Source: Desulfuromonadales bacterium (GTDB lineage: Bacteria > Desulfobacterota > Desulfuromonadia > Desulfuromonadales > BM103). From it: a stretch of 29,448 bases of DNA. Every line of letters starts with the position of its first letter. The stretch's first letter is position 1. The stretch lies in assembly GCA_029859485.1 (NCBI GenBank), contig JAOUDB010000002.1, forward strand, positions 1 to 29,448, in the 5' to 3' direction. Below are positions 744 to 20,643 of the stretch, piece after piece. Made by a program: the position numbers and the translations under genes. The notes under the pieces are model-generated. The model worked only from the letters and a program-made list of their open reading frames with translations. It made no database searches and had not been told where the DNA came from.

Positions 744-1610
744 ATGAAGGTCAAAAACTTTTTGCGATGCATCATCCCGAGCAGTTTAAGTCTTTTGCTC
801 TGTGTATGTCTTGTCGCATTCTCGGTGGCAATAACCCCGCTCGAAGTTGCGGCCGAGGAGACCAAGGCTGACCTGGGTGAAGCTGCGACTAACCCGGTCT
901 CGAACCTGATCCAGTTTCGCCTGCAGAACGCATACAACCCCAGCGTCTACAACGCAGACGGTTATAGCAATGCGTTTCTTGTTCAGACGGTTGTGCCCTT
1001 TTCCTCTCTGGCGGAAAAGTTCGACAGTCTGAAGGGTATCGTCACTCGCACCACCTTGCCATTTGTGTCCACCCCGGATCTTGATGACGTCGGCCGCCAG
1101 CATGGCTTCGGCGATACCAACTTCCTCGCCTTTGCTGTTCCCAAGGCAGCCCCAAAAAATACCGTATGGGGCGTCGGCCCGGCGCTTAACATCCCCACCG
1201 GGGGCACTGACCGGTTCACTGGGTCGGGCTCCTGGCAGGGCGGGCCCGCAGCGGTGGCCATGGTCACGCCCATTAAGGGCCTGCAGGTGGGCGCCCTGGC
1301 GTTTCACGTCTGGGATTTCCATAAATTCCGCAGTGACGCGAACGACGTCAGTACAACGTCCATACAGCCCATCCTCACCAAGCACTTCGACAAAGGCTGG
1401 TACGTTTCCCTGCCCGACACGCCGCAGAGCTATAACTGGCAGACTGAAAACTGGACCCTGAACCTCGGTGGCGTACTTGGCCGGGTTTTCCCGGTTGGTG
1501 GCCAGCCCATGCAGATCTTCGGTGGCGTCTACTACAACCCGGAAGACAACGATGTGCCTGCGGGGGAATGGACGTTCAAGTTCCAGATCGGCTGGTTGTT
1601 CCCACAATAA
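744..1610 (+). CDS. Outer-membrane beta-barrel protein, neuromedin-U/MetA-like
   Basis: The 288-residue product has a long signal peptide (charged N-terminus, hydrophobic LSLLLCVCLVAFSVAI core, likely cleavage near AAEE at about 39-41). The mature part is rich in alternating hydrophobic/aromatic strands and ends in GWLFPQ. The pattern LIQFRLQNAYNP, VVPFSSL, GFGDTNFLAF and GPALNIPTGG resembles the family often mislabelled 'neuromedin U', related to the MetA/phenol-pathway barrels. A perfect AGGAGG at 731-736 fixes the start. Its stop TAA directly abuts the next ORF. As first gene of the cluster it probably supplies an outer-membrane route for a small or hydrophobic solute; the substrate is not readable from sequence. 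Confidence 0.75.
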   Translation: MKVKNFLRCIIPSSLSLLLCVCLVAFSVAITPLEVAAEETKADLGEAATNPVSNLIQFRLQNAYNPSVYNADGYSNAFLVQTVVPFSSLAEKFDSLKGIVTRTTLPFVSTPDLDDVGRQHGFGDTNFLAFAVPKAAPKNTVWGVGPALNIPTGGTDRFTGSGSWQGGPAAVAMVTPIKGLQVGALAFHVWDFHKFRSDANDVSTTSIQPILTKHFDKGWYVSLPDTPQSYNWQTENWTLNLGGVLGRVFPVGGQPMQIFGGVYYNPEDNDVPAGEWTFKFQIGWLFPQ

Positions 1611-1628
1611 ATGATGATGGAGGCTACA

Positions 1629-2078
1629 ATGAGAAACTTGCTAAGCATTCTTCAGGTCCTGCTACTCGCGCTGCTCGTCGGTTGCAGTACGGCACCTTTA
1701 ACGCCGACCCAAGATGGTCTCATGCCGTCCGGTTCATTTGCGGTAAGGGAGTCTCAGGCCCTGCGGCTCGCGGTCGGTAATGCGGGTGAAGGCACACTAA
1801 TGTTCCAGGGTTGGCAGTACCCTTTCATATTAGAAAATGCGAAAGTGGATATCGACGGCAACAACCCAGTGGAAATAATAGGTTCAGTCTTCAATTTGCA
1901 GAAGACAGAAGATTTTGAAGGCAAATACACGCTGACAAAGGCCGATATCGAAACCGGAGAAGGAATCAGCGGATTAGAGGCAAAGAATGAAAACGGCGTG
2001 GTCATTCACGTTAGTACTCTGGGCCACGATGTTGCGATAGACGCCGAAGCGACGGGCTTGGAGATCACCCTCAAATAG
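1629..2078 (+). CDS. Putative lipoprotein of unknown function
   Basis: The 149-residue product starts MRNLLSILQVLLLALLVGCS, a lipoprotein signal peptide with LVGC lipobox, so it is probably lipid-anchored in the envelope. The mature domain (GTLMFQGWQYPF, IIGSVFNLQKTEDFEGKY, NENGVVIHV, GLEITLK) resembles small beta-rich exported proteins with G-x-VYNL-x-DFxGxY and NxNGVVI signatures, whose role I do not know. I chose 1629 because GGAGG lies just upstream. The earlier in-frame ATGs from 1611 (adding MMMEAT) abut the previous stop but have no good ribosome site and would spoil the signal peptide. It sits between the barrel and the DUF3604 genes and is likely cotranscribed with them. Confidence 0.7.
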   Translation: MRNLLSILQVLLLALLVGCSTAPLTPTQDGLMPSGSFAVRESQALRLAVGNAGEGTLMFQGWQYPFILENAKVDIDGNNPVEIIGSVFNLQKTEDFEGKYTLTKADIETGEGISGLEAKNENGVVIHVSTLGHDVAIDAEATGLEITLK

Positions 2079-2129
2079 GGGAAAACCGGAATGCGGGCCG
2101 CCATGCGCCTGGTTCGGAGGAGAAAAGCC

Positions 2130-4085
2130 ATGTTGACAAAGAAAGCTATAAAACTCACATTGTTCGCTGGTTTCGTCGCGACATTGCTGGCGATACCGGT
2201 GTACGCTCAGGAATCCGCTATTGGACTGCCACCGAGTGAAAGCGACCAGGCAAAGGTCGATAAGGCTCTCGGCCAGGGGTCTTATTCTCCTTATGCCGAC
2301 TTGAAATACCCTCTGAAACCACTCTTTGGTGACACCCACCTGCACACAGGCTTCTCGATGGACGCCGGGGTGTGGGGTTGTCGACTCAGGCCGAGAGACG
2401 CCTACCGTTTTGCCCGTGGTGAGCAGATTACGGCCTCTTCCGGGCAGCCGGCGAAACTTGCGCGGCCCCTTGATTTCCTGGTTGTCGCTGACCACTCAGA
2501 CAACATGGGCTTTGCCACCGACCTTTTGGCGGGCTCTTCTGCGCTGCTTGCCGAACCTAAGGGGCGTGAATGGTATGACTTGATCAATAAAGGCGAGGGG
2601 GGCAAGGCGGCACTGGACATGATCAATCTGTTCTCCCAGGGCAATTTTCCGAAAAAACTTCTCTATGCACCTGGCACGCGGCCATATCGTGACGCCTGGC
2701 AGGAGACGATCGACGCTGCCGAGGAATACAACGAACCGGGTCGTTTCACTGCCCTGATCGGCTATGAGTGGACCTCGCTGGTGAAGGGCGCCAACATGCA
2801 CCGGAACGTGATCCTCCGCGACGACGGTGACCGTGCGAAGCAGATCATCCCGTTTACCCTCATGCCTCCCGGCAGCGCCAACCCGGTCGACTTGTGGAAA
2901 TGGATGGAAACCTACGAAAAGAAGACTGGCGGCAGCGTGCTGGCCATAGCGCATAACGGCAACCTGTCCAACGGCATCATGTTCCCGGTCGAGAAGGCTT
3001 TCACAGGTAAGAAGGTCGACAAGAGCTATGTTGAGCAACGGGCGAAGTGGGAACGCCTCTACGAGGTCACCCAGACCAAGGGTACGGGGGAAACGCATCC
3101 ATACCTGTCGCCCAATGACGAATTCGCCGACTTCGAGATTTGGGACAAGGGCAATCTCGATGCAAGTCAGGTCAAGAAAAAAGAGATGCTCGAGTACGAG
3201 TATGCTCGTTCAGCGTACAAAAACGGCCTACAGCTCGAAGCCAAGCTCGGCACCAACCCCTACAAGTTCGGCCTGGTCGGCAGCAGCGACTCCCACACCG
3301 GTCTGGCAGCCATGGAAGAGGAGAACTTCTTCGGCAAGACGACCCCTCAGGAACCGAGTGCGGAGCGCATGACCGAGACCTTCATGGATAACAAGAAGAG
3401 CGGTGTGAAGATCATGGACTGGGAAGTCGGTTCATCCGGCTATGCCGCCGTGTGGGCCGAGAACAACACCCGCACCGCGATTTGGGATGCCATGCACCGC
3501 AGGGAGACCTACGCCACCACCGGAACCCGCATGACGGTTCGTTTTTTTGGTGGTTGGGATTTCAGTAATGACGACGCCAATTCCCGCAGCCCGGCCGAGA
3601 TTGGCTATGCCAAGGGTGTCCCCATGGGCGGTGACATGCGCAAGGCTCCCGAGGGTAAGGCGCCTTCTTTTTTGGTCGCAGCTCTCAAGGACTCGATCGG
3701 TGCCAACTTAGACCGCATCCAGATCGTCAAAGGTTGGATGGATGCCAAGGGCAAGCTGCATGAAAAAGTTTTTGACGTGGCCTGGGGCGGTGACCGTCAA
3801 CCCGACGCCAACGGCAAGCTCCCGTCCGTCGGCAGCACTGTCGATATTGAGAATGCCACCTGGACCAACACCATCGGGTCAGGCGAACTGATCGCGGTCT
3901 GGGAAGATCCGGATTTTGATGCGAAGGAGAGCGCTTTCTATTACGCCCGCGTGATCGAGATCCCGACCCCGCGATGGACCGCTTACGATGCCAAGCGTTT
4001 CGGGCTCAAGCCGCCACCCGGGACCAGGATGACCGTCACCGAACGCGCTTACACAAGCCCGATCTGGTACACGCCTTCGAAGTAA
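2130..4085 (+). CDS. DUF3604 exported PHP-like metal-dependent protein (paralog 1)
   Basis: The 651-residue product has a Sec signal peptide (LTLFAGFVATLLAIPVYAQ). It then has a full DUF3604 domain, which is related to the PHP/amidohydrolase-like metal-dependent phosphoesterase fold. Visible candidate metal ligands are GDTHLHTG (H70, H72), VVADHSD (D121, H122), IAHNGN (H275) and GSSDSHTG (D387, H389), all in the order expected for a PHP-type site. Start 2130 is chosen because GGAGGAG precedes it and the signal peptide follows at once; the upstream in-frame ATGs at 2091 and 2103 would add an Arg-rich extension. The substrate of the family is not established. A related copy follows 44 bp downstream, and the PPIase and HupE-like genes follow in the same operon. 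Confidence 0.88.
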   Translation: MLTKKAIKLTLFAGFVATLLAIPVYAQESAIGLPPSESDQAKVDKALGQGSYSPYADLKYPLKPLFGDTHLHTGFSMDAGVWGCRLRPRDAYRFARGEQITASSGQPAKLARPLDFLVVADHSDNMGFATDLLAGSSALLAEPKGREWYDLINKGEGGKAALDMINLFSQGNFPKKLLYAPGTRPYRDAWQETIDAAEEYNEPGRFTALIGYEWTSLVKGANMHRNVILRDDGDRAKQIIPFTLMPPGSANPVDLWKWMETYEKKTGGSVLAIAHNGNLSNGIMFPVEKAFTGKKVDKSYVEQRAKWERLYEVTQTKGTGETHPYLSPNDEFADFEIWDKGNLDASQVKKKEMLEYEYARSAYKNGLQLEAKLGTNPYKFGLVGSSDSHTGLAAMEEENFFGKTTPQEPSAERMTETFMDNKKSGVKIMDWEVGSSGYAAVWAENNTRTAIWDAMHRRETYATTGTRMTVRFFGGWDFSNDDANSRSPAEIGYAKGVPMGGDMRKAPEGKAPSFLVAALKDSIGANLDRIQIVKGWMDAKGKLHEKVFDVAWGGDRQPDANGKLPSVGSTVDIENATWTNTIGSGELIAVWEDPDFDAKESAFYYARVIEIPTPRWTAYDAKRFGLKPPPGTRMTVTERAYTSPIWYTPSK

Positions 4086-4129
4086 GCTGTCAAGCACAAT
4101 ACTTTTGCAGGAAAAGGAGAAATAGACAG

Positions 4130-6037
4130 ATGAATATCATCAAGCTAGCTGCAGTTGTTGCCTTTGCCAGCATCCTGTTGCCTTCGATGTCGTTTGCAGT
4201 GGAGTATCATCATGGTTCTGATGCCGTCGAGAAGAAAATCAGCGTCAAGGAGTTTTCTCCGTACGTGGGCCGTTCCTACCCGACACAGGTTTACTGGGGT
4301 GACCAGCACCTCCACACCGAAATCTCCGTCGATGCGGGAACCATGGTCCGGCTGGGTCAGGAGGACGCCTATCGCTTCGCTCGCGGCGAGGAAGTGACCT
4401 CGACCACCGGAGTCAAGGCCAAGCTTTCCAGACCCCTGGATTGGCTGGTGATCTCTGACCATGCCGAGATGTACGGCCTGATGCCGAAACTGTTGAAGGG
4501 TGACCCGAACCTGCTGAAAAACAAGGTGGCCAAAAAATGGTATGACGCCCTGAAGAGTGGCGACAAGAAGACGCAGTTCGCCACCCTCATGGAGATTGTC
4601 GGCGCGCTAAACAAGAAGGATCCGCCGTTCGACACAATCAAGATCACCAAAAATGCCTGGAAGGAATACACCGCATTGGCCGACAGGTACAACGAGCCGG
4701 GGCGCTTCTCGGCCATCATCGGCTATGAATACACGTCTCGCGGCGGGTACAACCTGCATCGCAACGTGCTCTTCCGCGGTGACGCCTCCGTGGCCAACCA
4801 GACTTTGCCGTTCTCCCAGTTTGACAGCCAAAATCCTGAAGACCTCTGGAAAGCGCTGGACCAATTCGAGCAGAAGACCGGGGCCGACGTGCTGGCCATT
4901 CCGCACAACGGAAACCTCTCGAACGGCTTGATGTTCTCTGTCGAAACCAACGATGGCAAACCCTACAGCAAAGAACTTGCAGCGCTGCGGGCGAAGATGG
5001 AGCCCCTTGTCGAAGTGACCCAGATCAAGGGTGACGGTGAATCGCACCCATTCCTCTCACCGAACGACGAGTTCGCCGATTACGAGACCTGGGACGATGC
5101 CAACCTGGACGGCACAGAGATCAAGAAACAGGAGATGCTGCAGTACGAATATGCGCGGTCCGCGCTAAAAATCGGCTTGCAGATGGAAGAAAAGCTCGGT
5201 GTAAACCCCTTCAAATTTGGCATGGCCTCTGGCACCGACGGTCACACGGCACTCACCGCCGTTGAAGAAAACAACTTCTTCGGCAAGCATCCCGGTGTCG
5301 AACCGGACCCAAAGCGCTGGGAGCATGTCGTGATCAAGTCCTCCCTGGATGACAAACTCACCACCCTCGGCTGGCAGCAGGCGGCCGGTGGCTATACCGG
5401 CGTCTGGGCGACCGAGAATACCCGTGAGGCGATCTTCGATGCGATGATTCGCAAAGAAACCTACGCCACCACCGGTCCGCGCATGCGGGTGCGTCTGTTC
5501 GGCGGGTGGGAGTTCACCGAAGAGGATTCGCAATCCCGTATGCCGGCACGAATCGGCTATGACAAGGGCGTCCCGATGGGCGGCGACCTGTATGACGCCC
5601 CCAAAGGCAAAGCGCCGACATTCCTCGTCGCAGCGGTCAAAGACCCTTACAGCGGCAATCTCGACCGCATCCAGATCATCAAGGGGTGGTTGGACAAAAA
5701 AGGCGAAACCCATGAGAAGGTTTATGACGTGGCCTGGTCCGGTGATCGCAAGCCTGGTAAGGACGGCAAGCTGCCGGCCGTCGGTAATACCGTTGACGTG
5801 AAGAAGGCCACTTGGACCAATTCGATCGGCGCACCTGAACTCGTTACAACCTGGGAAGACCCAGACTTCGACCCGAAGGAGAAGGCCTTCTACTACGCCC
5901 GGGTGATCGAGATTCCGACCCCGCGCTGGACGGCTTATGAAGCCAAGCGTTACGGTGTCGAGATGCCGGAGAACGTGCCGATGATCACCAATGAACGCGC
6001 TTATACCAGCCCGATCTGGTACAACCCCGAGGGATGA
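4130..6037 (+). CDS. DUF3604 exported PHP-like metal-dependent protein (paralog 2)
   Basis: The 635-residue product has a signal peptide (LAAVVAFASILLPSMSFAVE) and the same DUF3604 architecture as the gene before it. Ligand motifs are conserved: GDQHLHTE (H60, H62), VISDHAE (D110, H111), IPHNGN (H259) and GTDGHTA (D370, H372). The two proteins are clearly homologous end to end, including identical C-terminal stretches such as FYYARVIEIPTPRWTAY and ERAYTSPIWY. This is therefore an old tandem duplication in which both copies kept their catalytic-looking residues. Start 4130 has AAAGGAGA nearby; the frame is open upstream into the previous gene but without a plausible start. The stop overlaps the PPIase start by 4 bp. 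Confidence 0.88.
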   Translation: MNIIKLAAVVAFASILLPSMSFAVEYHHGSDAVEKKISVKEFSPYVGRSYPTQVYWGDQHLHTEISVDAGTMVRLGQEDAYRFARGEEVTSTTGVKAKLSRPLDWLVISDHAEMYGLMPKLLKGDPNLLKNKVAKKWYDALKSGDKKTQFATLMEIVGALNKKDPPFDTIKITKNAWKEYTALADRYNEPGRFSAIIGYEYTSRGGYNLHRNVLFRGDASVANQTLPFSQFDSQNPEDLWKALDQFEQKTGADVLAIPHNGNLSNGLMFSVETNDGKPYSKELAALRAKMEPLVEVTQIKGDGESHPFLSPNDEFADYETWDDANLDGTEIKKQEMLQYEYARSALKIGLQMEEKLGVNPFKFGMASGTDGHTALTAVEENNFFGKHPGVEPDPKRWEHVVIKSSLDDKLTTLGWQQAAGGYTGVWATENTREAIFDAMIRKETYATTGPRMRVRLFGGWEFTEEDSQSRMPARIGYDKGVPMGGDLYDAPKGKAPTFLVAAVKDPYSGNLDRIQIIKGWLDKKGETHEKVYDVAWSGDRKPGKDGKLPAVGNTVDVKKATWTNSIGAPELVTTWEDPDFDPKEKAFYYARVIEIPTPRWTAYEAKRYGVEMPENVPMITNERAYTSPIWYNPEG

Positions 6038-6939
6038 TTGGTGAAACAATGAACTACCTCAAGATCCTCCTGAAGGAGCCGCTGGTGCATTTTCTGCTGA
6101 TCGGCGCAGGGCTCTTTCTGATCTATAGCTTCAGCGATGGACCGGCGAACGACAATGCGAAGCGCATTGTCGTCTCGTCCGGCCAGGTTGAACAGATGGT
6201 CTCCAGGTTCACCCAGACCTGGATGCGCTCGCCCCTGGATGAGGAGTTTGACGGCCTGATCGAGAACTACGTGCGCGACGAGATCTTCTATCGAGAAGCC
6301 GTCGCCATGAGCCTGGACCGGAACGATCAGACGATCAAACAAAGGCTGCGCATGAAGCTGGAGTTTTTGCTCGAAGATTTAAGCTCGGTCAGCGAAATCA
6401 GCGACCAGGAGCTGACTGAATTCCTGGCGCGGCACCCAGAGAAGTTCATGGTGGAGCCGCGGGTCTCTTTCCGGCAGGTTTATCTCGACCCGCAAAAGCA
6501 CCATGACCCGGAGGCAGAGGCCCAAAGTCTGTTGCTCAGCCTGCAAAATGGCACAGACCCACTGCAGGCAGGTGATGCAACCATGCTCGCTTACGAACAC
6601 ATCAGAGCCTCACAGAGCAACATCGTTCGCTCCTTCGGCGAAAGCTTTGCCGAGCAGGTCAGCCGTCTCGACCCTGGCGACTGGACCGGCCCATTTGCAT
6701 CACAGTTCGGTGTTCACCTGGTCAAGGTCACGCAACGCGAGGAGGCCCGGCTTCCCGAGCTGGCTGAAATTCGCGACCAGGTCGAACGCGAGTACCTGGT
6801 TCTACGCCGCCAGGAGATGAAGGACGACACCTATCAGCGCCTGCGTGCTGGCTACCAGGTCGTCATCGAAGCTCCTGAACCGGCGGACGGTGCTCCGGGT
6901 GTTGCTGCCACGAAGCAACCGGTTGGGGGCGGTGGATGA
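6034..6939 (+). CDS. Membrane-anchored PpiC-type peptidyl-prolyl cis-trans isomerase
   Basis: The 301-residue product has one N-terminal membrane anchor (VHFLLIGAGLFLIYSF, about residues 18-33). A helical chaperone-like segment follows (YVRDEIFYREAVAM, LEFLLEDLSSVSEISDQEL), then a parvulin/rotamase-like domain (EPRVSFRQVYLD, FAEQVSRLDPGDWTGPFASQFGVHLVKV). This is the layout of SurA/PrsA/PpiD-like periplasmic foldases. The ATGA overlap with the preceding DUF3604 gene, and a second overlap with the HupE-like gene, indicate translational coupling. It likely helps fold exported proteins or barrels of this cluster. An alternative start at 6049 (MNYLKIL) is possible. Confidence 0.85.
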   Translation: MIGETMNYLKILLKEPLVHFLLIGAGLFLIYSFSDGPANDNAKRIVVSSGQVEQMVSRFTQTWMRSPLDEEFDGLIENYVRDEIFYREAVAMSLDRNDQTIKQRLRMKLEFLLEDLSSVSEISDQELTEFLARHPEKFMVEPRVSFRQVYLDPQKHHDPEAEAQSLLLSLQNGTDPLQAGDATMLAYEHIRASQSNIVRSFGESFAEQVSRLDPGDWTGPFASQFGVHLVKVTQREEARLPELAEIRDQVEREYLVLRRQEMKDDTYQRLRAGYQVVIEAPEPADGAPGVAATKQPVGGGG

Positions 6940-7958
6940 TGAAGCGTTTGCTTCTAAATATTGTCCTCTGCGTCTTGACACTCTGCAGTGGTTTTTCTTT
7001 CCAGGCCCAGGCGCATGAGTCTCAACCCGGCATGCTGGAACTAAACCAGTTGACAGACACCCGCTTCGAGGTGGTCTGGCGGGCGCCCATCTATTACGGC
7101 AAGCCGCACCCGGCACAACTGGAACTCCCGGACAACTGGCAGCCCATCAGCAACCCAACGGTCCGGCAGCTCTCCGATTCGGCGCTGCATCGGCTCATCG
7201 TTGAAGTGCCCAACAGTTTGATTGACGGGAGTGTCGTTCGTTTCCCAGGGCTCGAGTCGACGATCACCGATGTCTTCATCGTTATGACCCGGCTGGATGG
7301 CAGTCAGATGACCCAGGTCGTGCGGCCAACGGAGCCTTTTGCTGAGCTGCGCGGTGAGCGCTCCTGGTATGTTTCCGCCAAGGAATACCTGGTGCTCGGT
7401 TTGAATCACATCCTGACCGGCATCGACCATCTGCTCTTCGTGCTCGGGCTGCTGCTGATCGTCAGTGGTCGCTGGACGCTATTGAAAACCATTACCGCGT
7501 TCACCATTGCCCACAGTATCACCCTCGCGATCGCTACTCTGGGATATGCAACCGCGCCGGGGCCGCCGCTCAATGCGGCCATTGCCCTGAGTATCCTCTT
7601 CCTCGGTCCGGAGATCGTACGGGTCTGGCGTGGCCAGACCAGTTTTACTATCAGACATCCCTGGGTGGTGGCTTTTGCCTTCGGTCTGCTGCACGGCTTC
7701 GGCTTCGCCAGCGGCTTGACGATCAACGGCCTGCCGAGCTCAGAAATCCCGGTGGCACTGCTGCTCTTCAACGTGGGTGTCGAAATCGGTCAGCTGTTCT
7801 TTGTCGCTATCATCCTTTTGCTCGAACGCTCTTTCCGGATTCTCGAGGTCCGTTGGCCGCGTTGGGCGGAAGCCTTGCCGGCCTATACCGTCGGCGGACT
7901 GGGTGCTTTTTGGACAATCCAGAGGGTCGCCATGATGTTCGGAGGTTTTGCCAAATGA
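6936..7958 (+). CDS. HupE/UreJ-type membrane protein with periplasmic N-terminal domain
   Basis: The 340-residue product has a signal peptide (LLLNIVLCVLTLCSGFSFQAQA) and a roughly 110-residue extracytoplasmic beta-rich domain beginning HESQPGMLELNQ. A C-terminal bundle of about six to seven TM segments follows. The membrane part carries the HupE signature H-x5-D-H (HILTGIDH; H158, D164, H165), plus FTIAHSITLAIA and GLLHGFGFASGL, as in the long HupE/UreJ_2 group. HupE relatives move Ni2+ or Co2+ for hydrogenase or urease maturation; neither enzyme is encoded here, so metal supply to the DUF3604 proteins is my inference. It overlaps the PPIase gene and the next HupE gene by 4 bp each. Confidence 0.85.
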   Translation: MMKRLLLNIVLCVLTLCSGFSFQAQAHESQPGMLELNQLTDTRFEVVWRAPIYYGKPHPAQLELPDNWQPISNPTVRQLSDSALHRLIVEVPNSLIDGSVVRFPGLESTITDVFIVMTRLDGSQMTQVVRPTEPFAELRGERSWYVSAKEYLVLGLNHILTGIDHLLFVLGLLLIVSGRWTLLKTITAFTIAHSITLAIATLGYATAPGPPLNAAIALSILFLGPEIVRVWRGQTSFTIRHPWVVAFAFGLLHGFGFASGLTINGLPSSEIPVALLLFNVGVEIGQLFFVAIILLLERSFRILEVRWPRWAEALPAYTVGGLGAFWTIQRVAMMFGGFAK

Positions 7959-8566
7959 TCGAGATCAAACCTTCATCCCGAACCGTTCAAAGCGGATTCG
8001 TTCTGCTGCTGCTCGCAGTTTCGGCCCAGAGCGCTTTTGCACATGTCGAAGGCGGACAGGCCGCAGGGTTTATAACCGGTCTGCAACACCCCTGGTCGGG
8101 ACTGGACCATATCCTGGCGATGATCGCCGTCGGTCTCTGGGGAGCGCAGCTCGGCAAGCCGTCGATCTGGGTGCTACCGATCGCTTTCCCGATGATGATG
8201 GCAGCAGGGGCCATGATGGGTCTGTTGGGTATTCCTGTCCCCGGGGTTGAGATTGGCATCGCTTTTTCTGCGATCCTGCTGGGGCTGATGGTGCTGGCTG
8301 AGGTGCGACCGAAGCTCGCCGTTTCGATCGCGATGGTCGGTTTTTTTGCCATTTTCCACGGCCACGCTCACGGCACGGAGCTGCCGCCAGGGCAGAGCGG
8401 TCTTCTTTACAGTATGGGTTTCGTCATCGCCACAGGCTGCCTGCACGGTCTGGGGATTGTCATCGGCCTAGTGAAAGAGCTGCCGTTGGGACGACAGGCT
8501 CTCCGCGGAGCCGGGTCATTCATCGCGGTGATGGGTGTCGTTTTCCTCTGGAAGGCTTTGACATGA
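7955..8566 (+). CDS. HupE-family nickel/cobalt permease-like protein
   Basis: The 203-residue product has a cleavable N-terminal segment (FVLLLLAVSAQSAFAHVEGG) and then about six TM helices. Both canonical HupE motifs are intact: H-x5-D-H in HPWSGLDH (H45, D51, H52) and FHGHAHGTE (H135 to E142). Length and motifs match classic HupE/UreJ metal permeases. Start 7955 is supported by GGAGG at 7941-7945 and the ATGA overlap with the preceding stop. It is the most canonical of the three HupE-like genes. Nickel or cobalt as the ion is family knowledge, not seen directly. Confidence 0.88.
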   Translation: MIEIKPSSRTVQSGFVLLLLAVSAQSAFAHVEGGQAAGFITGLQHPWSGLDHILAMIAVGLWGAQLGKPSIWVLPIAFPMMMAAGAMMGLLGIPVPGVEIGIAFSAILLGLMVLAEVRPKLAVSIAMVGFFAIFHGHAHGTELPPGQSGLLYSMGFVIATGCLHGLGIVIGLVKELPLGRQALRGAGSFIAVMGVVFLWKALT

Positions 8567-9147
8567 GAGTCTTGACAACGACTCTGCTTTTGCTCTGTTG
8601 GCCGGTTTGCGCCTCTGCCCACCTGGTGACCACCGGTCTGGGACCGGTCTACGACGGCATCGGCCACCTGGTCATGACACCGGAAGACCTGATCCCGGTG
8701 CTGGCGATTGCCCTTTACGCCGGCATGCGTGGTGCTGCTCCAGGTAGATATGCGCTGTTCTCCTTGCCACTGGCCTGGTTCGCTGGCGGCTTGCTGGGTG
8801 TTTCCTTCACCAGTTTGCCGCCCTTGCCAACCCCGGCGTTCTCGATTCTCATCATCGGTGTCCTGATCGCAGCGGACTTCAAGCTGTCTGACCGGATTTT
8901 CCTCGTTATGGTACTGGCTGTCGGTTTTATCCATGGGGCATTAAATGGTGTCGCCCTCAAGGGTAACGCCGGTGTCCCTGGGTTGATCGGTATCATGGCG
9001 ACCCTATTCGTACTCGTTGCGCTCTTCTCGGCGCTTGTTGTTTCACTCAAAAAACCCTGGGCACGGATTGTGGTACGTGTGGCGGGCAGTTGGGTCGCCG
9101 CCATTGGCATGCTCATGTTCGGCTGGATGTTCCGCGGTCAGGTCTGA
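8563..9147 (+). CDS. Divergent HupE/UreJ-like membrane protein
   Basis: The 194-residue product has a signal peptide (TTLLLLCWPVCASA) followed by HLVTTGLGPVYDGIGHLVMTPEDLIPVLAIALYAG and five to six hydrophobic helices. It lacks the H-x5-D-H and FHGxAHG motifs of its neighbour. It keeps a GIGHLxxxPEDLIPVLALAL-type segment and GFIHGALNG, typical of shorter HupE-like accessory proteins. It overlaps the previous gene by 4 bp (ATGA), with GGAAGG upstream. It probably works with the two preceding HupE-like proteins, as a partner subunit or a second permease, but this is inferred only from the tight coupling. Confidence 0.72.
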   Translation: MRVLTTTLLLLCWPVCASAHLVTTGLGPVYDGIGHLVMTPEDLIPVLAIALYAGMRGAAPGRYALFSLPLAWFAGGLLGVSFTSLPPLPTPAFSILIIGVLIAADFKLSDRIFLVMVLAVGFIHGALNGVALKGNAGVPGLIGIMATLFVLVALFSALVVSLKKPWARIVVRVAGSWVAAIGMLMFGWMFRGQV

Positions 9148-9173
9148 GAAATAAACTCTGCTGGAGGGCTGTT

Positions 9174-10001
9174 ATGAAGGTTACAAAAGTGTTCGTTCTC
9201 TCACTTGTTGTCTCTGGTCTCCTTGGCCTATTAACGACACAATCATTTGCTCAGAGCGATGGCAAAGAGTGGTCAGACCCCTGGCGGTTCCATGTCAATC
9301 TTTATGGTTGGCTCCCGGATGCTCCAGCGACCATTAGTGTTAATGGAGAGGAAGTCGTAGATGTCCCTGAAGATCTGGATACCGTCCTCGATTCTTTGGA
9401 CATGACAGCGATGTTTGAACTGGAAGCTCACAAGGGGCCTCTCGTCCTGTTCACCAACAATGTCTATTACAAAGGCACGTATGACGAGAATTTTACCGGG
9501 CCGATCACCGGCCTGGCCAAAAAATATGAGCTGCAGGAAGAAGCCTGGGTGATCAAGTACGGTGTTGGTTATGATTTGGGTACGTGGAATCTTGGCAAAT
9601 CTGAAGATTCCCCGAACTTTAGCCTGATCCCCTGGGTTGGGGGGTTTTACTTTCATGATGACTGGTCATTGACAATCAAACCTTACGGTGAGCCTTTGAG
9701 TGGCAAGACAACAGGGACTTATGACTTTAACACACCGATGGTTGGTTTGGGCTCCCGTGTGATCCTCTCGGAAAAGTGGTATTTGAATCTCAGTTATGGC
9801 TACGGCGGTTGGGATGTAGACAGTGTCGATGAAATCTACGATTTTATCGGTAACGTCGGCTATCGCTTCAAAATGGGAGATGTCTCCAGCAAAGTAGTCG
9901 CTGGTTACAGGTACCTTTATTTCAATCGGCCGGATAATCGGGGCGTAGAATTAGAATTAACATGCAAGGGGCCGTTTATTGGGATTGGCTGGGAGTTCTA
10001 A
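9174..10001 (+). CDS. Outer-membrane beta-barrel protein
   Basis: The 275-residue product has a signal peptide (VFVLSLVVSGLLGLLTTQSFAQS). Its mature sequence starts with WRFHVNLYGWLPD and runs through many amphipathic strands to a C-terminal GIGWEF, a barrel-type ending in Phe. The layout 'LYGWLPxAPATISVNGE ... DLDTVLDSLDMTAMFELEAHKGPLVLFTNNVYY' matches a widespread uncharacterised porin-like family. Start 9174 follows GGAGGG and lies 26 bp after the HupE-like stop; the earlier in-frame ATG at 9090 is inside the previous gene. It likely forms the outer-membrane part of this envelope cluster. Substrate unknown. Confidence 0.75.
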   Translation: MKVTKVFVLSLVVSGLLGLLTTQSFAQSDGKEWSDPWRFHVNLYGWLPDAPATISVNGEEVVDVPEDLDTVLDSLDMTAMFELEAHKGPLVLFTNNVYYKGTYDENFTGPITGLAKKYELQEEAWVIKYGVGYDLGTWNLGKSEDSPNFSLIPWVGGFYFHDDWSLTIKPYGEPLSGKTTGTYDFNTPMVGLGSRVILSEKWYLNLSYGYGGWDVDSVDEIYDFIGNVGYRFKMGDVSSKVVAGYRYLYFNRPDNRGVELELTCKGPFIGIGWEF

Positions 10002-10048
10002 GGTTTCAATCACCCCAAAAGTGCACTTATTAGAAAAAGGCCATTTTA

Positions 10049-11266
10049 ATGAATTCCAAGCTTTTGATAGCGTTGGCTGTTTTTCTCATCCTCCCTTCTT
10101 TTGTCGCCGCAGAGATAGGGCCTGCGTTGTCCGGCCTGACCGGCAGTGCCAATGACGCCACGGCCGTCTTCTTTTCTCCTGCGGGCATCACCCGTCTCGA
10201 CCAATCTGAGATGGTTGTTCAGGCGGCTTTCGCTTTCAAAGAGTCAAAATTCGAGGTCGACGAGGCGACCTACTCCGGTGGAAATGCCGACAATGATCAG
10301 CAGATTGCCGTCATCCCCGGGGTGTTCTACGCCAAGCCCCTGAATGAACGCTGGCACCTTGGTCTCTCGGTCAATGTTCCTTCTGGCTTTGGTAACAATT
10401 ATGGCGACCGCTGGTCGGGGCGCTACCATACTCAAGAAAGCACGCTCGCCTTTGTCGCCGCAACCGGTGTCCTGGCTTACAAAGTGACCGACAAATTTTC
10501 CTTGGCGGCCGGCCCTTACGCGATGTATACGGACTCAACCGTCACAGCTCGGGTCAACAACCTGCTGCCAGGCTACGGTGATGGCAAAGTCGAGCTGGAA
10601 GAAGACGGTGCAGATCTTGGTTTCGTCCTCGGTGCGATGTACCAGTTTACCGACACAACCCGGGTGGGCCTGACCTACCGGTCGGAGCTCAAGCCCGATC
10701 TCGAAGGAACGCCGACATTCAAAAATCTCGATCCCCTGCTGCGCGACACCCTGGCCGCAGCCGATCTCCTCGGCACGGAAGTCGATGTAGACTTTACGAT
10801 TCCCGCCATGGCGTCGGTTGGATTTTACACCGAGGTTTCTGATCAGTGGTCGGTAACCGGCGACCTGACGTGGCTTGATATGTCCGAATTCGGCATCACC
10901 CATCTCAGGGTTGAAGAGGACAGCGTTTCGGTGAGCGGTAAATTTCGCGACATGTGGGCAACCAGTGCATCCGTTAAATATCGTTACGCGGAGGATCGCG
11001 CTGTTTCGATTGGCGGACTATACGCCTCATCCGCTGTGACGGATGATAATCGTGATATCGGCCTGCCACTCGATCGGGTCATCGGCGCAGGGGTTGGCCT
11101 CGATTTGCCCATTCATGATTATCCTTGTCATATCAATCTGAACTATTTTGACCTCGGTGATGCTGAAGTATCGCAGGAAGGTGGACCACTGACCGGTGAT
11201 TTTGAAGGGTCTTTCAGTAGTAACTGGGCGGTTATGTTGGATATTCAAGTCAAGCTGGCTTTCTAA
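10049..11266 (+). CDS. OmpP1/FadL/TodX-family outer-membrane transport protein
   Basis: The 405-residue product has a signal peptide (LLIALAVFLILPSFVAA). Right after it comes the FadL-family N-terminus (GPALSGLTGSANDATAVFFSPAGITRL; AxxNDATAxxxNPAGxxxL-like). GVFYAKPLNERWHLGLSVNVPSGFG, VGLTYRSELK and a C-terminal barrel strand ending in VKLAF follow. FadL relatives carry long-chain fatty acids or other hydrophobic compounds across the outer membrane. It is shorter than E. coli FadL but normal for environmental members. It lies 47 bp after the previous barrel gene; the ribosome site is weak (AAAAAGG). A small hairpin with a T run follows it. Confidence 0.88.
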   Translation: MNSKLLIALAVFLILPSFVAAEIGPALSGLTGSANDATAVFFSPAGITRLDQSEMVVQAAFAFKESKFEVDEATYSGGNADNDQQIAVIPGVFYAKPLNERWHLGLSVNVPSGFGNNYGDRWSGRYHTQESTLAFVAATGVLAYKVTDKFSLAAGPYAMYTDSTVTARVNNLLPGYGDGKVELEEDGADLGFVLGAMYQFTDTTRVGLTYRSELKPDLEGTPTFKNLDPLLRDTLAAADLLGTEVDVDFTIPAMASVGFYTEVSDQWSVTGDLTWLDMSEFGITHLRVEEDSVSVSGKFRDMWATSASVKYRYAEDRAVSIGGLYASSAVTDDNRDIGLPLDRVIGAGVGLDLPIHDYPCHINLNYFDLGDAEVSQEGGPLTGDFEGSFSSNWAVMLDIQVKLAF

Positions 11267-11316: not shown

Positions 11317-14300
11317 ATGTATTTGGGGTTTCTGCCTTTGATATTCAAACGATGCCATTTTAAGAAACTTTCCAGACGGACCCTGTCTCCATTCGTCCGT
11401 TCTGCTCTGCTGTTTTGCGCACTCATCTTCACGTTCTTTTGGTTATCTCCAGCTGTTGTTGCGGCAGAGAGCTCAAGGATTGAACTCACTGCCGAAGAAC
11501 AGGCCTGGCTGGCAGAGCATCCGGTAATCACTTTGGCTACCGGGAATGGTAACTATCCTCCCGCCGAGATCAAAAACCCTGACGGCACATGGTCCGGATT
11601 TAACATTGAATTCTTTGAACAGCTCAGCAAACTACTCGATATCGATATCCGCTTGCATTACGGGGCATGGGCAGAGACACAAAAAAAAGCGATGAATGGA
11701 GAGTTGGACGGTCTGAGCATCGTTGGCAAGGATCCCAGACGGGATGTTATTTTCAATGCAACCGATACCATTTATCCCTCGTATTTTTCTGTTTTTTCAG
11801 CATCCAGAGCCGATCTTAAAATAAACAGCTTCACAGACCTGGACGGCCTGCGAATCGGGTACAAAAGGGGGGCTCGTCCCGCAAAAACCCGCCTGAAAAA
11901 ACTTCCTGAGGCAACTGCCGTTCCCTTTGACAGTCATGAGGCCATGACCCAGGCACTGCTCAGTAAAGAGATCGACTTTATTGTCGCCTGGATGGGCTAC
12001 GATCATTGGCGCAAACAGACCTTGCAGGGTACGATCGACAAGGTTTATCTGATCACAGAGCACCCTCTAGAAATGGTCAGTTACATCCGCAATGATTGGC
12101 CGGAGTTTGTTCCGATCATGAACAAGGCCATCGCTGCTCTCAAGCAGGAAGAGCTGCCCCGAATCATGAACAAGTGGTTCCTTGAATGGCCTAAACAGGC
12201 AGCCAGAGTGTCTGGTGTCAATTTGACTCCGGAGGAGAAGTCCTGGCTTGCAAAAAACCATAGAGTTCGTGTCCGTTTCAATCAGCACCCACCTTATTTT
12301 TATTTCAAAGATGACATGGTTGTTGGCCTCGCGGTGGATTTTCTTAATGCAGTTTCAGAACGAGCCGGGATAAGTTTCCAGAATGAAGGGCAGAGCCATT
12401 TTTCTGCTCTCTTGGATGGATTGATAAAGCATCAGGGGCCAGATCTTGTGTCGGCAATAATGCCGACTCCAAAACGGGAAGAGGTTATACTGTTTACCCA
12501 GCCTTATATCTCTTCGCCCAGATTCATATTTACTCGGGACGACGCTCCCTTTTTTTCGTCGATCGAACATCTCTTCGACAAAAATATCGCTGTAGTTAAT
12601 GGCTATGTCACCTACCAATATCTTGCAGAAAATTATCCGAATCTCGATCTCTTGGTCTACAACACTTCTGAAGAAGCGCTTAGAGCAGTATCATCAGGAG
12701 AGGCGTTTTCCTACATTGGTGATTTAATTTCCACGCCAGCAATAATCAACGAATTCGGGTTAAGAAACCTGAAGGCCGCCTGCCCAAGTGGATTGCCAGA
12801 CCACCCGCTTGCCATAGGGGTTCGAAACGACTGGCCCGAATTAAGGAGCATCCTCGATAAAGCGATTGATACCTTACCCGCTGCGGAAAAGGCTGCCATC
12901 ATCAATAAATGGACCACGGTCAAGATTGAGCACGGTATCCGTTCAACGGATGTAAATAAGTGGATCATTATAATTGCCCTCTCTGTCCTGAGCATCATCA
13001 CGATGTTTCTTGTCTGGAACAAACAATTGAGTCGCAAGGTTGTAGAACGTACGGCCGAACTCTCGGACAGCGAAGCACGTTTCCGTGCCACCTTCGAGCA
13101 GGCAGCCGTGGGGATCGCTCACGTTGCCCCCGGCGGCCAGTTCCTGAGGTTGAACAAGAAGTTCTGTGATATCGTCGGCTATGCTCAGGAAGAGCTGCTG
13201 GAGTTGAACTTCCATGACATCACCCACCCGGACGACCTGGAAACGGATACAGGTCTCGTACAGGAACTGCTCGACGGAAAGAACGATTCCTACACCCTCG
13301 AAAAACGCTATCTCCACAAGGATGGTTCAACCGTCTGGGTCAACCTCACGGTCAAGATCCTGCGCGAGGATGATGGTAGCCCACGCTGGTTCGTCTCGGT
13401 GGTTCAGGACATCTCCGACCGCATCCAAATCCAGCAAGAGATCAAGAAAAGTTACGAATTCCTGAATCATCTGACCCAGGCCATTCCCGACGCGATCTTA
13501 TCCGTCAAACTGCCGGAACGTACAGTGACCTGGTGCACCGATACTTATGGGACACTGGGCTATGAAGCCAACGAATGTATCGGGGACACAACAGCCAAGT
13601 TTTATCCGACCCCCGATGAGGCAAAACAGTTCGGGACGCTCATGGACAAAGCCATTGCAGAAGGCAAAAAACTTGTCCAGACTGAACTCGAACTGCGGCG
13701 CAAGAACGGCGAACTCTTCCCGGCAGATGTCAAGCTCTCCTTTATGCAAGATGGCGATCGTGTGACCGGTGTTACAGCATTACTCCGAGATATAAGTGAG
13801 CGCAAGCTGGCTGAAACCAAATTGCAGAAGAGCCATGACTTTCTTGAATATATACTCAGCTCTATCCCGGAAGCGGTTTTCTATGTCAAGTTGCCTGAAC
13901 GTGTCATTGCCTGGGCCAATGATTCCTACAACATCATGGGTCTTGGAGAAAACACTGAACATCTTATGGGCCTATCGACAGAGGGTTTTTTCGCCAGCAA
14001 GGAGGAATACGCCCGATTTGGCGAGATCCAGAGACAAGCCATCGAAGAGGGTAAATCCTTCATGCACACAGAAGCGATGCTGCGCCATGAAAACGGGACA
14101 GTTTTTCCGGCGGATATAACGGGCACTTTTTTCAAGGAGAACGGAAAGGTCGTCAGCATCACCGCAATCGTGCGAGACATCACAAAAGCCAAGCTGGCCG
14201 AGAAGAAGTTCGTCGCTTACCAGGACCGCCTCAAGGCCCTGACCTCGCAGTTGACCATCGCCGAGGAGCAGGAACGCCGACGCATCGCAGAGAACCTGCA

Positions 14301-14895
14301 CGATGAGGTCAGCCAGGCCCTTGCCATGACGCGCCTGCAGCTGGCGGCCGCGATCCGCGGCACCATCTGCGACGACTCCAGTCTGAAAGAGCAGCTTGAT
14401 GAGATCTCCGGCTCGCTGCTCCAGGCGATCCGCGACACCCGGCAACTGATCTTCGAACTCAGCTCACCATCCATGCACGAACTCGGCCTTGCGTCTGCTG
14501 TCATTGAATGGGTCGAAGAAAAGAAGAGACAGTTGAAGAATGATGTCGATATTGCCATAGTTAATGAGCTGACCGGCACTGAGCTCGATGAAGATGAACG
14601 CACGATCCTGTTCCGAAATATTCGCGAGCTATTGACCAATACATTCAAACACGCGCGGGCAAAGAAGGTCAAAATCACCCTGGTTTCTGATCAAGAAACC
14701 ATCCGGGCTTCGGTTGAGGATGATGGTATCGGCTTCGATCCGGCGCAGGTACTGGACGGGCACAACCTGAACGGGGGCTTCGGCCTTTTCAGCATCGAGG
14801 AGCGCATGAAAGATCTGAACGGCACGATGAAGATCGAAGCCGCTCCCCACAAAGGCTGTAAAGTGACCCTCTCACTACCGAAAGAGATGGAGTGA
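11317..14895 (+). CDS. Sensor histidine kinase with two SBP_bac_3 domains and three PAS domains
   Basis: The 1192-residue product has an N-terminal membrane/signal segment (about 29-49) and two periplasmic SBP_bac_3-like domains (about 65-290 and 310-540). Each SBP domain is preceded by a LT-x-EE-x-WL linker typical of BvgS-like sensors. A TM helix lies at about 549-567, and PAS domains start near 585, 715 and 843. The kinase core is of NarL/DegS type: HisKA_3 with ENLHDEVSQ (phosphoacceptor H995), N box RNIRELLTNTFKHA (about 1100), DDGIGFD and GGFGLFSIEER. PAS2 and PAS3 share AIPDA.../SIPEA... and VKLPER, indicating a recent internal duplication. No good ribosome site precedes 11317. The regulator gene is translationally coupled downstream. 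Confidence 0.9.
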   Translation: MYLGFLPLIFKRCHFKKLSRRTLSPFVRSALLFCALIFTFFWLSPAVVAAESSRIELTAEEQAWLAEHPVITLATGNGNYPPAEIKNPDGTWSGFNIEFFEQLSKLLDIDIRLHYGAWAETQKKAMNGELDGLSIVGKDPRRDVIFNATDTIYPSYFSVFSASRADLKINSFTDLDGLRIGYKRGARPAKTRLKKLPEATAVPFDSHEAMTQALLSKEIDFIVAWMGYDHWRKQTLQGTIDKVYLITEHPLEMVSYIRNDWPEFVPIMNKAIAALKQEELPRIMNKWFLEWPKQAARVSGVNLTPEEKSWLAKNHRVRVRFNQHPPYFYFKDDMVVGLAVDFLNAVSERAGISFQNEGQSHFSALLDGLIKHQGPDLVSAIMPTPKREEVILFTQPYISSPRFIFTRDDAPFFSSIEHLFDKNIAVVNGYVTYQYLAENYPNLDLLVYNTSEEALRAVSSGEAFSYIGDLISTPAIINEFGLRNLKAACPSGLPDHPLAIGVRNDWPELRSILDKAIDTLPAAEKAAIINKWTTVKIEHGIRSTDVNKWIIIIALSVLSIITMFLVWNKQLSRKVVERTAELSDSEARFRATFEQAAVGIAHVAPGGQFLRLNKKFCDIVGYAQEELLELNFHDITHPDDLETDTGLVQELLDGKNDSYTLEKRYLHKDGSTVWVNLTVKILREDDGSPRWFVSVVQDISDRIQIQQEIKKSYEFLNHLTQAIPDAILSVKLPERTVTWCTDTYGTLGYEANECIGDTTAKFYPTPDEAKQFGTLMDKAIAEGKKLVQTELELRRKNGELFPADVKLSFMQDGDRVTGVTALLRDISERKLAETKLQKSHDFLEYILSSIPEAVFYVKLPERVIAWANDSYNIMGLGENTEHLMGLSTEGFFASKEEYARFGEIQRQAIEEGKSFMHTEAMLRHENGTVFPADITGTFFKENGKVVSITAIVRDITKAKLAEKKFVAYQDRLKALTSQLTIAEEQERRRIAENLHDEVSQALAMTRLQLAAAIRGTICDDSSLKEQLDEISGSLLQAIRDTRQLIFELSSPSMHELGLASAVIEWVEEKKRQLKNDVDIAIVNELTGTELDEDERTILFRNIRELLTNTFKHARAKKVKITLVSDQETIRASVEDDGIGFDPAQVLDGHNLNGGFGLFSIEERMKDLNGTMKIEAAPHKGCKVTLSLPKEME

Positions 14896-14900
14896 AGACC

Positions 14901-16304
14901 ATGCACGAACAGACCTCGATCCTTCTGGTTGATGATCATGCCATGTTGCGCAAAGGCCTTCGCGCGCTGATCGAACAGGAACAGGGCCTCTCTGTGATCG
15001 ATGAAGCCGGAGACGGCCTCGAGGCGATCGAGAAGGCCCGGGAACTGCAACCGGATGTCGTTATCATGGATATCAACATGCCCCGTCTCAACGGCATCGA
15101 GGCGACCCGTCGGATCCTCTGTGAAGCACCGGAAACCCGTATCCTGGCCTTGTCGATCCATTCTTCGAAGCGTTATGTCGAGGAGATGCTTGATGCCGGC
15201 GTGGCAGGTTACCTGCTCAAGGAGAGCGCGCCCGAAGAGCTGATCTCTGCGATCTGCGCCCTCAGGGACAACAAAAGCTACCTGAGTCCGGAGATCACCG
15301 AAATCGTCATCGAAAAGGCCCGCGAGACGACCTCATCTGCCGCAAACGTCGCCGATAAACGGCGTGAGCCGGGCAAAAGGCATAGACCTGAACTTCCGGA
15401 GGGGATGATCCACCGTCCTGAGCTGGTTGAACGACTCGAGAATGGGCACCACAAGCTCCTGACCTTGGTCGTGGCACCGGCAGGCTACGGCAAGAGCACC
15501 CTGGTCTGCGACTGGCTGACTCGGTACGCCCGTCAGTCTCTCTGGTGGGAAATCGACCCCAAGGACAACGATCTGCGACGGTTTCTAAAGAGCTGGGTCG
15601 CCTTGACCACGGCACTCTTTGCCGACCAGCCGAGTTACCTGCCGGCCCTGGTCGAAGCAGCCAACCTGCCGCCAACCTCGATCCTGTCCGGGGCCATGGT
15701 GGCCGAACTGGAAGAATATCCCGGAGACCTGACCATCGTCTTCGAGAACAAGAACCTGGTCAAGGACAAGTCGGTCTTCGACCTGCTGAGCCAGGTCCTG
15801 AAGAATCCTTTGGCATCCAAGCGTTTTGTCATCATCAGCCGACAGGACCCGTTCCTGCCGATCTCGACCTTGCGTGCGAACAATCAATTCAACGAACTCC
15901 GTACCGAGGACCTCAAGTTCACGGTCCGGGAAGTCCAGGCGTATTTGGAGAAGGCCTTGTCCAGGGAGGTCGATGCGGAGACTGCGGCGCTCTGGCAAGA
16001 GCGTACCGAGGGCTGGGTCACCGGTTTGCAGCTTGCCGTTCATAGCCTTACCGGCCAGGAGACCGATGAATCCGAGAAGCAACCCAGCATAGTGTCGGTC
16101 AACTGGCGGGACCTTCTGACTAACCGTGAATACGACGTGCTGCTGCTTTTGCAGCAGCGTCTGCGCGACAAGGAGATCGCAGACCGGCTCTGCATCTCGA
16201 CCGGAACGGTCAGGACTCACCTGAAAAACCTCTACAGCAAGCTCGATGCGACCAATCGCCGTGATGTCGTCGTCAAGGCGGAGAAACTCCAGATCCTGGA
16301 CTGA
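14901..16304 (+). CDS. Response regulator: REC + MalT-like ATPase + LuxR HTH
   Basis: The 467-residue product starts with a NarL-type receiver (acidic pair D11/D12, phospho-acceptor D57 in VIMDINMPR, then LALSIHSS and KES). A linker and a MalT/LAL-like STAND NTPase follow, with Walker A APAGYGKST (K198), WWEIDPKDNDLRRF, IISRQDPFLPISTLRA and LRTEDLKFTVREVQAYL. It ends with a LuxR-type HTH (LTNREYDVLLLL to LKNLYSKLDATNRRD, about 405-465). The long TPR sensor region of MalT proteins is absent. The usual Walker B LDDYH reads FENKN (E282, N283). ATG 14901 has GGAG at good distance; a GTG at 14892 overlaps the kinase stop and is the alternative start. It surely pairs with the kinase next to it. Confidence 0.88.
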   Translation: MHEQTSILLVDDHAMLRKGLRALIEQEQGLSVIDEAGDGLEAIEKARELQPDVVIMDINMPRLNGIEATRRILCEAPETRILALSIHSSKRYVEEMLDAGVAGYLLKESAPEELISAICALRDNKSYLSPEITEIVIEKARETTSSAANVADKRREPGKRHRPELPEGMIHRPELVERLENGHHKLLTLVVAPAGYGKSTLVCDWLTRYARQSLWWEIDPKDNDLRRFLKSWVALTTALFADQPSYLPALVEAANLPPTSILSGAMVAELEEYPGDLTIVFENKNLVKDKSVFDLLSQVLKNPLASKRFVIISRQDPFLPISTLRANNQFNELRTEDLKFTVREVQAYLEKALSREVDAETAALWQERTEGWVTGLQLAVHSLTGQETDESEKQPSIVSVNWRDLLTNREYDVLLLLQQRLRDKEIADRLCISTGTVRTHLKNLYSKLDATNRRDVVVKAEKLQILD

Positions 16305-20614: not shown

Positions 20615-20643
20615 TGGCCGACGCATAGGGGCCAGGAGAGAAC

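Follow-up and report, generated by a model that had tools for sequence, protein, structure and literature searches.

A parvulin and a HupE-type membrane protein accompany DUF3604 proteins: a candidate maturation or metal-handling unit for putative periplasmic metallohydrolases

INTRODUCTION

What would bring genes for exported DUF3604 proteins, a PpiC parvulin, and HupE-type membrane proteins together on one strand? The question is raised by a 29,448-nucleotide stretch of a Desulfuromonadales bacterium (assembly GCA_029859485.1, contig JAOUDB010000002.1, positions 1 to 29,448; hereafter the window), in which ten plus-strand open reading frames (ORFs) span positions 744-11266. An original prediction, made from the sequence alone, read all ten as one envelope system, a metal-dependent hydrolase with its own metal supply, folding helper, and outer-membrane route, and stated in advance that it would be refuted if DUF3604 and HupE-like genes were rarely adjacent in other genomes. 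We find that the conserved core consists of DUF3604, a probably membrane-anchored PpiC parvulin, and one protein of the HupE_UreJ_2 family (HUP2), with two DUF3604 copies in the window. We posit, with a probability of about one half, that PpiC and HUP2 form a unit that matures a periplasmic DUF3604 hydrolase of the PHP type or handles its metal.

Each of the three families is known; the module that they form is undescribed in the literature found, which included no preprints and few subscription papers. At least 8000 database proteins match the window DUF3604 query, and the literature searched offered no function for the family, its lone mention being a table entry that annotates chlamydial CT_425 as DUF3604 (PMC11925237, table). 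PF12228 was absent from the same literature, and PF13795, IPR022028, or IPR032809 led to a single paper, on the "anglerases" (PMC12537917), to which we return below.

RESULTS

A recurrent three-gene core

A survey of one genome per species (84,980 species), queried with 12 aligned DUF3604 proteins, returned at least 578 relatives, and the best 80 loci, selected by likeness to the window DUF3604, were used. PpiC and HUP2 both lie beside DUF3604 in 55 of these 80 named-genome loci, or in 57 of 83 once the window and two relatives' loci are added; the pair is present in 45 of the 59 loci with at least 3 kb of flank on either side of DUF3604. The neighborhood on which the original prediction had staked itself is strongly supported and extends, as described below, to co-occurrence at the genome level. 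All 57 trio loci are co-directional, the order being DUF3604-PpiC-HUP2 in 32 and PpiC-HUP2-DUF3604 in 25, and in 34 of them the PpiC stop and the HUP2 start share a 4-bp overlap. The hosts include rhizobia, Betaproteobacteria, Gammaproteobacteria, Desulfobacteraceae, Verrucomicrobia, Planctomycetes, and Gemmatimonadetes.

The module is also found on plasmids. Among 78 plasmid records with a DUF3604 match, six were inspected, and RefSeq annotation gives the same trio on plasmids of Sinorhizobium, Rhizobium, Neorhizobium, and Ensifer. In S. meliloti the cassette is annotated in the record NZ_CP021803.1; on plasmid accessoryA of this species (L085), it has two DUF3604 genes and is flanked by genes for type IV secretion and plasmid mobilization.

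Co-occurrence across three phyla

In an evenly drawn sample of 299 Pseudomonadota genomes, 26 have any DUF3604 match: 21 strong, one divergent (G190), two fragments (G100, G220), and two weak (G196, G271). The fragments and weak matches were left out of the count of DUF3604 genomes, and G190, which brings the near-full-length total to 22, was counted in the final Fisher test only. With a profile of linked HUP2 (A2, which includes the atypical or truncated L053 and L004), 23 genomes show full-length matches of at least 227 bits, the next best match reaching 178 bits and covering the membrane domain only; a profile of linked PpiC (A5), with matches counted at E <= 1e-25, finds exactly the same 23. 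Near-full-length DUF3604 is accompanied by the pair in 21 of 22 genomes, and the remaining two pair genomes are G220, in which a broken DUF3604 lies beside the pair, and G362, in which none was found. Linked-type PpiC was not seen in 19 of 20 HupE_UreJ_2 stretches from genomes without DUF3604, the exception again being G362.

In 19 of 21 genomes, and for 24 of 33 DUF3604 copies, HUP2 is no more than 6 kb away, 21 of these 24 copies being on the same strand. In the remaining two genomes, G068 and G315, the pair is found elsewhere; G069 likewise has it away from its DUF3604 locus, L084. DUF3604 copies in the 21 genomes number 33, one of which (G335:C29) carries an in-frame stop, against 24 pairs; pairs never exceed DUF3604 copies, and in six genomes they are fewer.

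Two further samples comprised 147 Planctomycetota genomes and 198 genomes of the window's own phylum, its own genome included. DUF3604 (E < 1e-50) occurs in 11 of the 147 Planctomycetota, in some as fragments, with 36 further genomes having weak, uncounted matches (E above 1e-50); linked HUP2 exceeds 200 bits in eight (one split), all of which have DUF3604, and two more DUF3604 genomes (G501, G453) give partial linked-HUP2 matches. In the window's own phylum, DUF3604 (E < 1e-100; a weak match in G568 was left uncounted) occurs in 10 of 198 genomes and linked HUP2 above 200 bits in six, five of them with DUF3604, while in G589 a divergent HUP2 (151 bits) and PpiC adjoin DUF3604. The link between DUF3604 and the pair is strong, not absolute. 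Fisher tests, uncorrected for shared ancestry, give p of 6e-29 (Pseudomonadota), 4e-11, and 6e-7 for the three phyla. A chance or hitchhiking operon with no functional link is hardly credible: genes can travel together, and the cassette is carried on rhizobial plasmids, but the occurrence of both gene orders, the retention of the pair when unlinked, and these p values, uncorrected as they are, argue against it.

PpiC and HUP2 are also more tightly coupled to each other than to DUF3604. Over 56 loci, their divergences correlate with r of 0.62, versus 0.31 and 0.34 for each against DUF3604 (computed with the best-scoring DUF3604 per locus and no species-tree control). PpiC could accordingly serve HUP2 as an assembly factor for a metal transporter, with DUF3604 as a metal-regulated enzyme of the same regulon, and the overlap of the two genes and their presence in the same 23 genomes are in keeping with this. 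We consider it unlikely, because DUF3604 is present in 21 of those 23 Pseudomonadota, a restriction that one need not expect of a general metal transporter.

DUF3604 as a putative exported PHP-type hydrolase

The window copies of DUF3604, 53% identical to each other, lie on the plus strand at 2130..4085 (copy 1, 651 residues, with an alternative upstream start possible at 2091) and 4130..6037 (copy 2, 635 residues from its ATG, scanned from 4124). They match PF12228 with 823.7 and 803.2 bits, against a cut-off of 20.4 bits, and are putative PHP-type metallohydrolases. The ligand set of copy 1 comprises H70, H72, D121, H122, E213, H224, H275, D387, and H389; all are invariant in 147 of 147 near-full-length DUF3604 proteins except D121, which is present in 146. 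The ligands follow the order HxH, DH, E, H, H, DxH, a set that we take to be the PHP enzyme pattern, and the intact metal-ligand motifs that had been claimed for the PHP-like proteins are confirmed in both window copies. Each copy has one N-terminal hydrophobic segment, and a simple pattern for a Tat-like motif matched none of 147 DUF3604 N termini, so export is likely of the Sec type.

These features are best read as those of a PHP-type hydrolase that acts in the periplasm and is a distant relative of CehA/McbA. The relationship is remote: copy 1 has no match to NF038032 (CehA/McbA) even at E 10, and copy 2 has none at E 1. Two proteins from Planctomycetota that match DUF3604 weakly lie in between, one scoring above both the DUF3604 and the NF038032 cut-offs and the other under that of NF038032; the bridging protein L226 scores 81 bits with NF038032 and 78 bits with PF12228. 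A profile comparison with the two proteins aligns the DUF3604 core at E 1.6e-18, which is not an independent test, since they were chosen because they match PF12228. A sequence search gave no credible solved-structure match to DUF3604. By distant analogy with CehA/McbA, the substrate may be ester- or carbamate-like.

The parvulin and the HupE-type protein

The window PpiC (6034..6939, +) matches Rotamase_2 with 49.9 bits (cut-off, 27 bits) and has a single hydrophobic segment, N-terminal at residues 11-30, which makes it probably membrane-anchored. A search of PDB finds a weak match to SurA (E 6e-5). Its start is perhaps 6049, where an ATG preceded by GGTGA at 6040-6044 is equal to or better than 6034. 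This choice bears on the 4-bp overlaps by which the genes had been said to be linked: those at 6936-6939, 7955-7958, and 8563-8566 are plain ATGA, and that at 6034-6037 stands or falls with the PpiC start.

HUP2 (6936..7958, +) matches PF13795 with 145.7 bits (cut-off, 24.5 bits). A predicted signal peptide is followed by ~115 residues of outer domain and then by the membrane domain, with cleavage, judged from the sequence, at QAQA-HES in the window protein, so that His27 would be mature residue 1. Among 88 distinct linked sequences, D164 and H165 are present in all 88 and H158, H193, H253, and E283 in 87; at the predicted mature N terminus, 77 have His and 11 have Asp. HUP2 retains the HX5DH motif and conserved membrane histidines. 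HX5DH and FHGx[AV]HGxE are the nickel-permease motifs of HupE proteins; both are present in the accessory HupE encoded at 7955..8566 (+; PF04955, 183.4 bits), and neither occurs in the degenerate HupE-like protein at 8563..9147 (+; PF04955, 43 bits). These two accessory proteins, each with a His after its predicted signal peptide, lie outside the core; of the three HupE-type proteins originally counted, the third lacks both HupE motifs.

Apparent PpiC-HUP2 gene fusions were rejected. The long HUP2 frames in L022, L026, L040, L211, L234, and L235 are over-extended ORFs with PpiC in another frame, and L005, which joins the first PpiC residues to a truncated HUP2, reads as a deletion. Separately, two HUP2-like proteins beside a linked PpiC (L055:13309-15339, L232:3116-5449) have the N terminus of the linked family and a larger or different membrane part.

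Genes outside the core

The ten co-directional genes exist as ORFs, as originally described, and their variable members flank the core on both sides. Upstream lie putative outer-membrane barrel A (744..1610, +), which has no Pfam or NCBIfam match, and a putative lipoprotein (1611..2078, +) with an LLVGC lipobox judged by eye; downstream lie putative outer-membrane barrel B (9168..10001, +), whose OMP_b-brl score of 20.4 bits is under the cut-off, and a FadL/TodX-type (Toluene_X) outer-membrane transporter (10049..11266, +; PF03349, 187.8 bits). Of the three barrels announced, only this last is a secure family match.

Together with the core, these genes could make up a single envelope system that has an outer-membrane route of its own. 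Their shared direction and tight spacing would suit such a system, FadL is encountered again in L011, L023, and L048, and some loci have barrel A or B next to the core. When neighbors were clustered over 81 loci, the window included and L001 and L002 excluded as copies of it, barrel A was found in nine, barrel B in 13, FadL in four, the second HupE in six, and the third in four, and the lipoprotein had its sole relative in L028. We therefore reject the ten-gene unit, a very improbable explanation, and the outer-membrane route of the original prediction is not supported. No fixed further partner emerged when 115 of 425 candidate neighbors (L005-L039) were scanned with Pfam: no family occurs in more than four, the commonest being DUF2092 (4), LysR (4), and FGE-sulfatase (3), among 25 of 92 families viewed. 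By eye, sulfatase-like proteins are present in 12 of 81 loci (one at L031:17502-19253) and formylglycine-enzyme-like proteins in seven.

Directly 3' of the cassette, 11317-16304 encodes a sensor kinase (SBP_bac_3 in two stretches, PAS domains, HisKA_3) that overlaps by 4 bp a LuxR-type response regulator (receiver, ATPase-like middle, GerE). A 429-residue protein without a Pfam family (17128-18417) adjoins MlaA and has a 53% paralogue at G000:C54. Its relatives, found in 12 of 40 genomes searched (its own included), are 71-88% identical in some members of the window's family, and from these the window contig looks native; a contaminant contig is disfavored by the 88% identity within the same family and 76% within the same genus. 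Farther on, 19406-21855 holds a tandem pair of similar Na/H-exchanger-like proteins, the second recognized from its sequence only, followed by a FUSC-HlyD-OEP efflux operon. DUF3604 itself occurs in just three of the 58 genomes of a relatives search that included the window genome, so the cassette was probably acquired, or often lost, among the window's relatives.

DISCUSSION

A shared unit for several enzymes

We posit that DUF3604, exported probably through Sec, would act as a periplasmic PHP-type metallohydrolase; that PpiC, membrane-tethered and SurA-like, and HUP2 would work as one functional unit at the inner membrane, in which (i) PpiC folds the exported DUF3604 and (ii) HUP2, whose outer domain begins with a predicted metal-binding His, handles its metal; and that one such unit could serve several DUF3604 enzymes per cell. 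DUF3604 and the pair are adjacent, mostly on a shared strand, and matched in occurrence, DUF3604 copies outnumber pairs, and the ligand residues are conserved; a physical complex and the delivery, identity, and direction of a metal are inferred, as is the substrate class suggested by CehA/McbA. A near-obligatory pair, an excess of clients, retention of the pair when unlinked, and a pair that covaries most with itself form the pattern expected of a shared maturation unit.

Several observations weigh against this proposal. The pair is missing nearby from 14 of the 59 loci whose DUF3604 has at least 3 kb of flank each way, two of whose genomes were examined further and proved to have it elsewhere. 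Among the plasmids inspected, those of Ruegeria and Salipiger have DUF3604 without the pair (the chromosomes of these hosts were not searched). DUF3604 occurs without linked HUP2 in G190, in G496 (on contigs of 11 and 3.8 kb), and, in the window's own phylum, in genus g51 (G523, G561, G597) and in G553, where PpiC lies beside it; conversely, G362 and G607, the latter on a short contig, have the pair without DUF3604. Three of the 24 nearby DUF3604 copies are on the opposite strand (one in G136, two in G335), the p values take no account of ancestry, and 11 of 88 HUP2 proteins begin with Asp, not His. Finally, HupE-type proteins are described as importers, an ill fit with the loading of a Sec-exported enzyme.

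The last point divides the possibilities for the metal. With no match to the simple Tat-like pattern among the 147 N termini, DUF3604 should meet its metal in the periplasm, and a pure importer would not help an enzyme metallated outside the cytoplasm; a HupE importer as the enzyme's metal supply, as first suggested, is therefore doubtful. The metal link itself gains support from the conservation of the PHP-type ligands, the near-invariance of the HUP2 membrane residues, and the His after the predicted signal peptide in most HUP2 proteins. The boldest way around the misfit, possible though less likely than not, is that PpiC-HUP2 is a dedicated inner-membrane maturase of metalloenzymes: PpiC would hold the new enzyme open while the N-terminal-His domain of HUP2 inserts metal from the membrane side. 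HupE-type proteins would then have a further function, inserting metal in the periplasm instead of importing it.

The main rival keeps the importer and reverses the flow. In the periplasm, DUF3604 would free a metal or small product from a complexed substrate, HUP2 would capture it through its N-terminal domain and import it, and PpiC would do no more than help one or the other protein to fold. Such an uptake module, possible though not what we favor, matches the capture-then-import model in the main text on anglerases (PMC12537917) and could draw on the FadL-type transporters of some loci. It is less easily reconciled with a single pair that can accompany three intact DUF3604 copies and may lie far away, or with the lack of a recurrent uptake partner among the 115 neighbors scanned.

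The frequent parvulin-HupE partner shows which genes to co-express to obtain active DUF3604 enzyme, the partnership makes a bound metal worth seeking in DUF3604, and HupE-type proteins gain a context beyond hydrogenase and urease.

Comparison with known systems

The window PpiC resembles SurA in its PpiC domain and weak sequence match, but by its sequence it would be membrane-anchored, and its linked profile (E <= 1e-25) is confined to the 23 linked-HUP2 genomes of the Pseudomonadota sample. HupE/UreJ nickel permeases share both motifs with the protein at 7955..8566, and HX5DH and membrane histidines with HUP2, which differs in its extra N-terminal domain and in having a PHP-type enzyme as partner. 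Those permeases sit in hydrogenase or urease operons; the claim that neither enzyme is encoded nearby holds for the 20 proteins of the window that were scanned, no search for them having been made elsewhere in the genome.

The closest parallel to HUP2 is the anglerases. The main text of Franco Cairo et al. (2025; PMC12537917) gives this name to HupE/UreJ-2 proteins with an N-terminal His, reports for one of them Kd values of 73.6 nM for Cu and 220 nM for Ni, proposes that they feed a permease by capture followed by import through HupE/UreJ-2, and mentions neither DUF3604, PpiC, nor an isomerase. As far as that text goes, HUP2 and the anglerases (Ang-1 fused to HupE/UreJ-2) share a PF13795 membrane domain, a signal peptide and His as the first mature residue (both predicted in HUP2), and an extracytoplasmic domain ahead of the membrane domain, but this domain has ~115 residues in HUP2 versus ~175, and the His is conserved in 77 of 88 HUP2 proteins versus 100% of anglerases. 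HUP2 has no sequence match among the solved chains searched; as a test of kinship with the solved Ang-1 domain (9GCE) this is weak, since two other HupE_UreJ_2 proteins were also matchless.

For the enzyme, the nearest comparison is with CehA and McbA, which excerpts of PMC8292978 describe as carbamate hydrolases with essential histidines, one of them shown to be periplasmic. DUF3604 shares with them the order of PHP-like ligand motifs, the bridge through L226, and probable export, and differs in its large insertions and in the lack of an NF038032 match for copy 1. We rate the DUF3604-PpiC-HUP2 module as belonging among the accessory modules of metalloenzymes.

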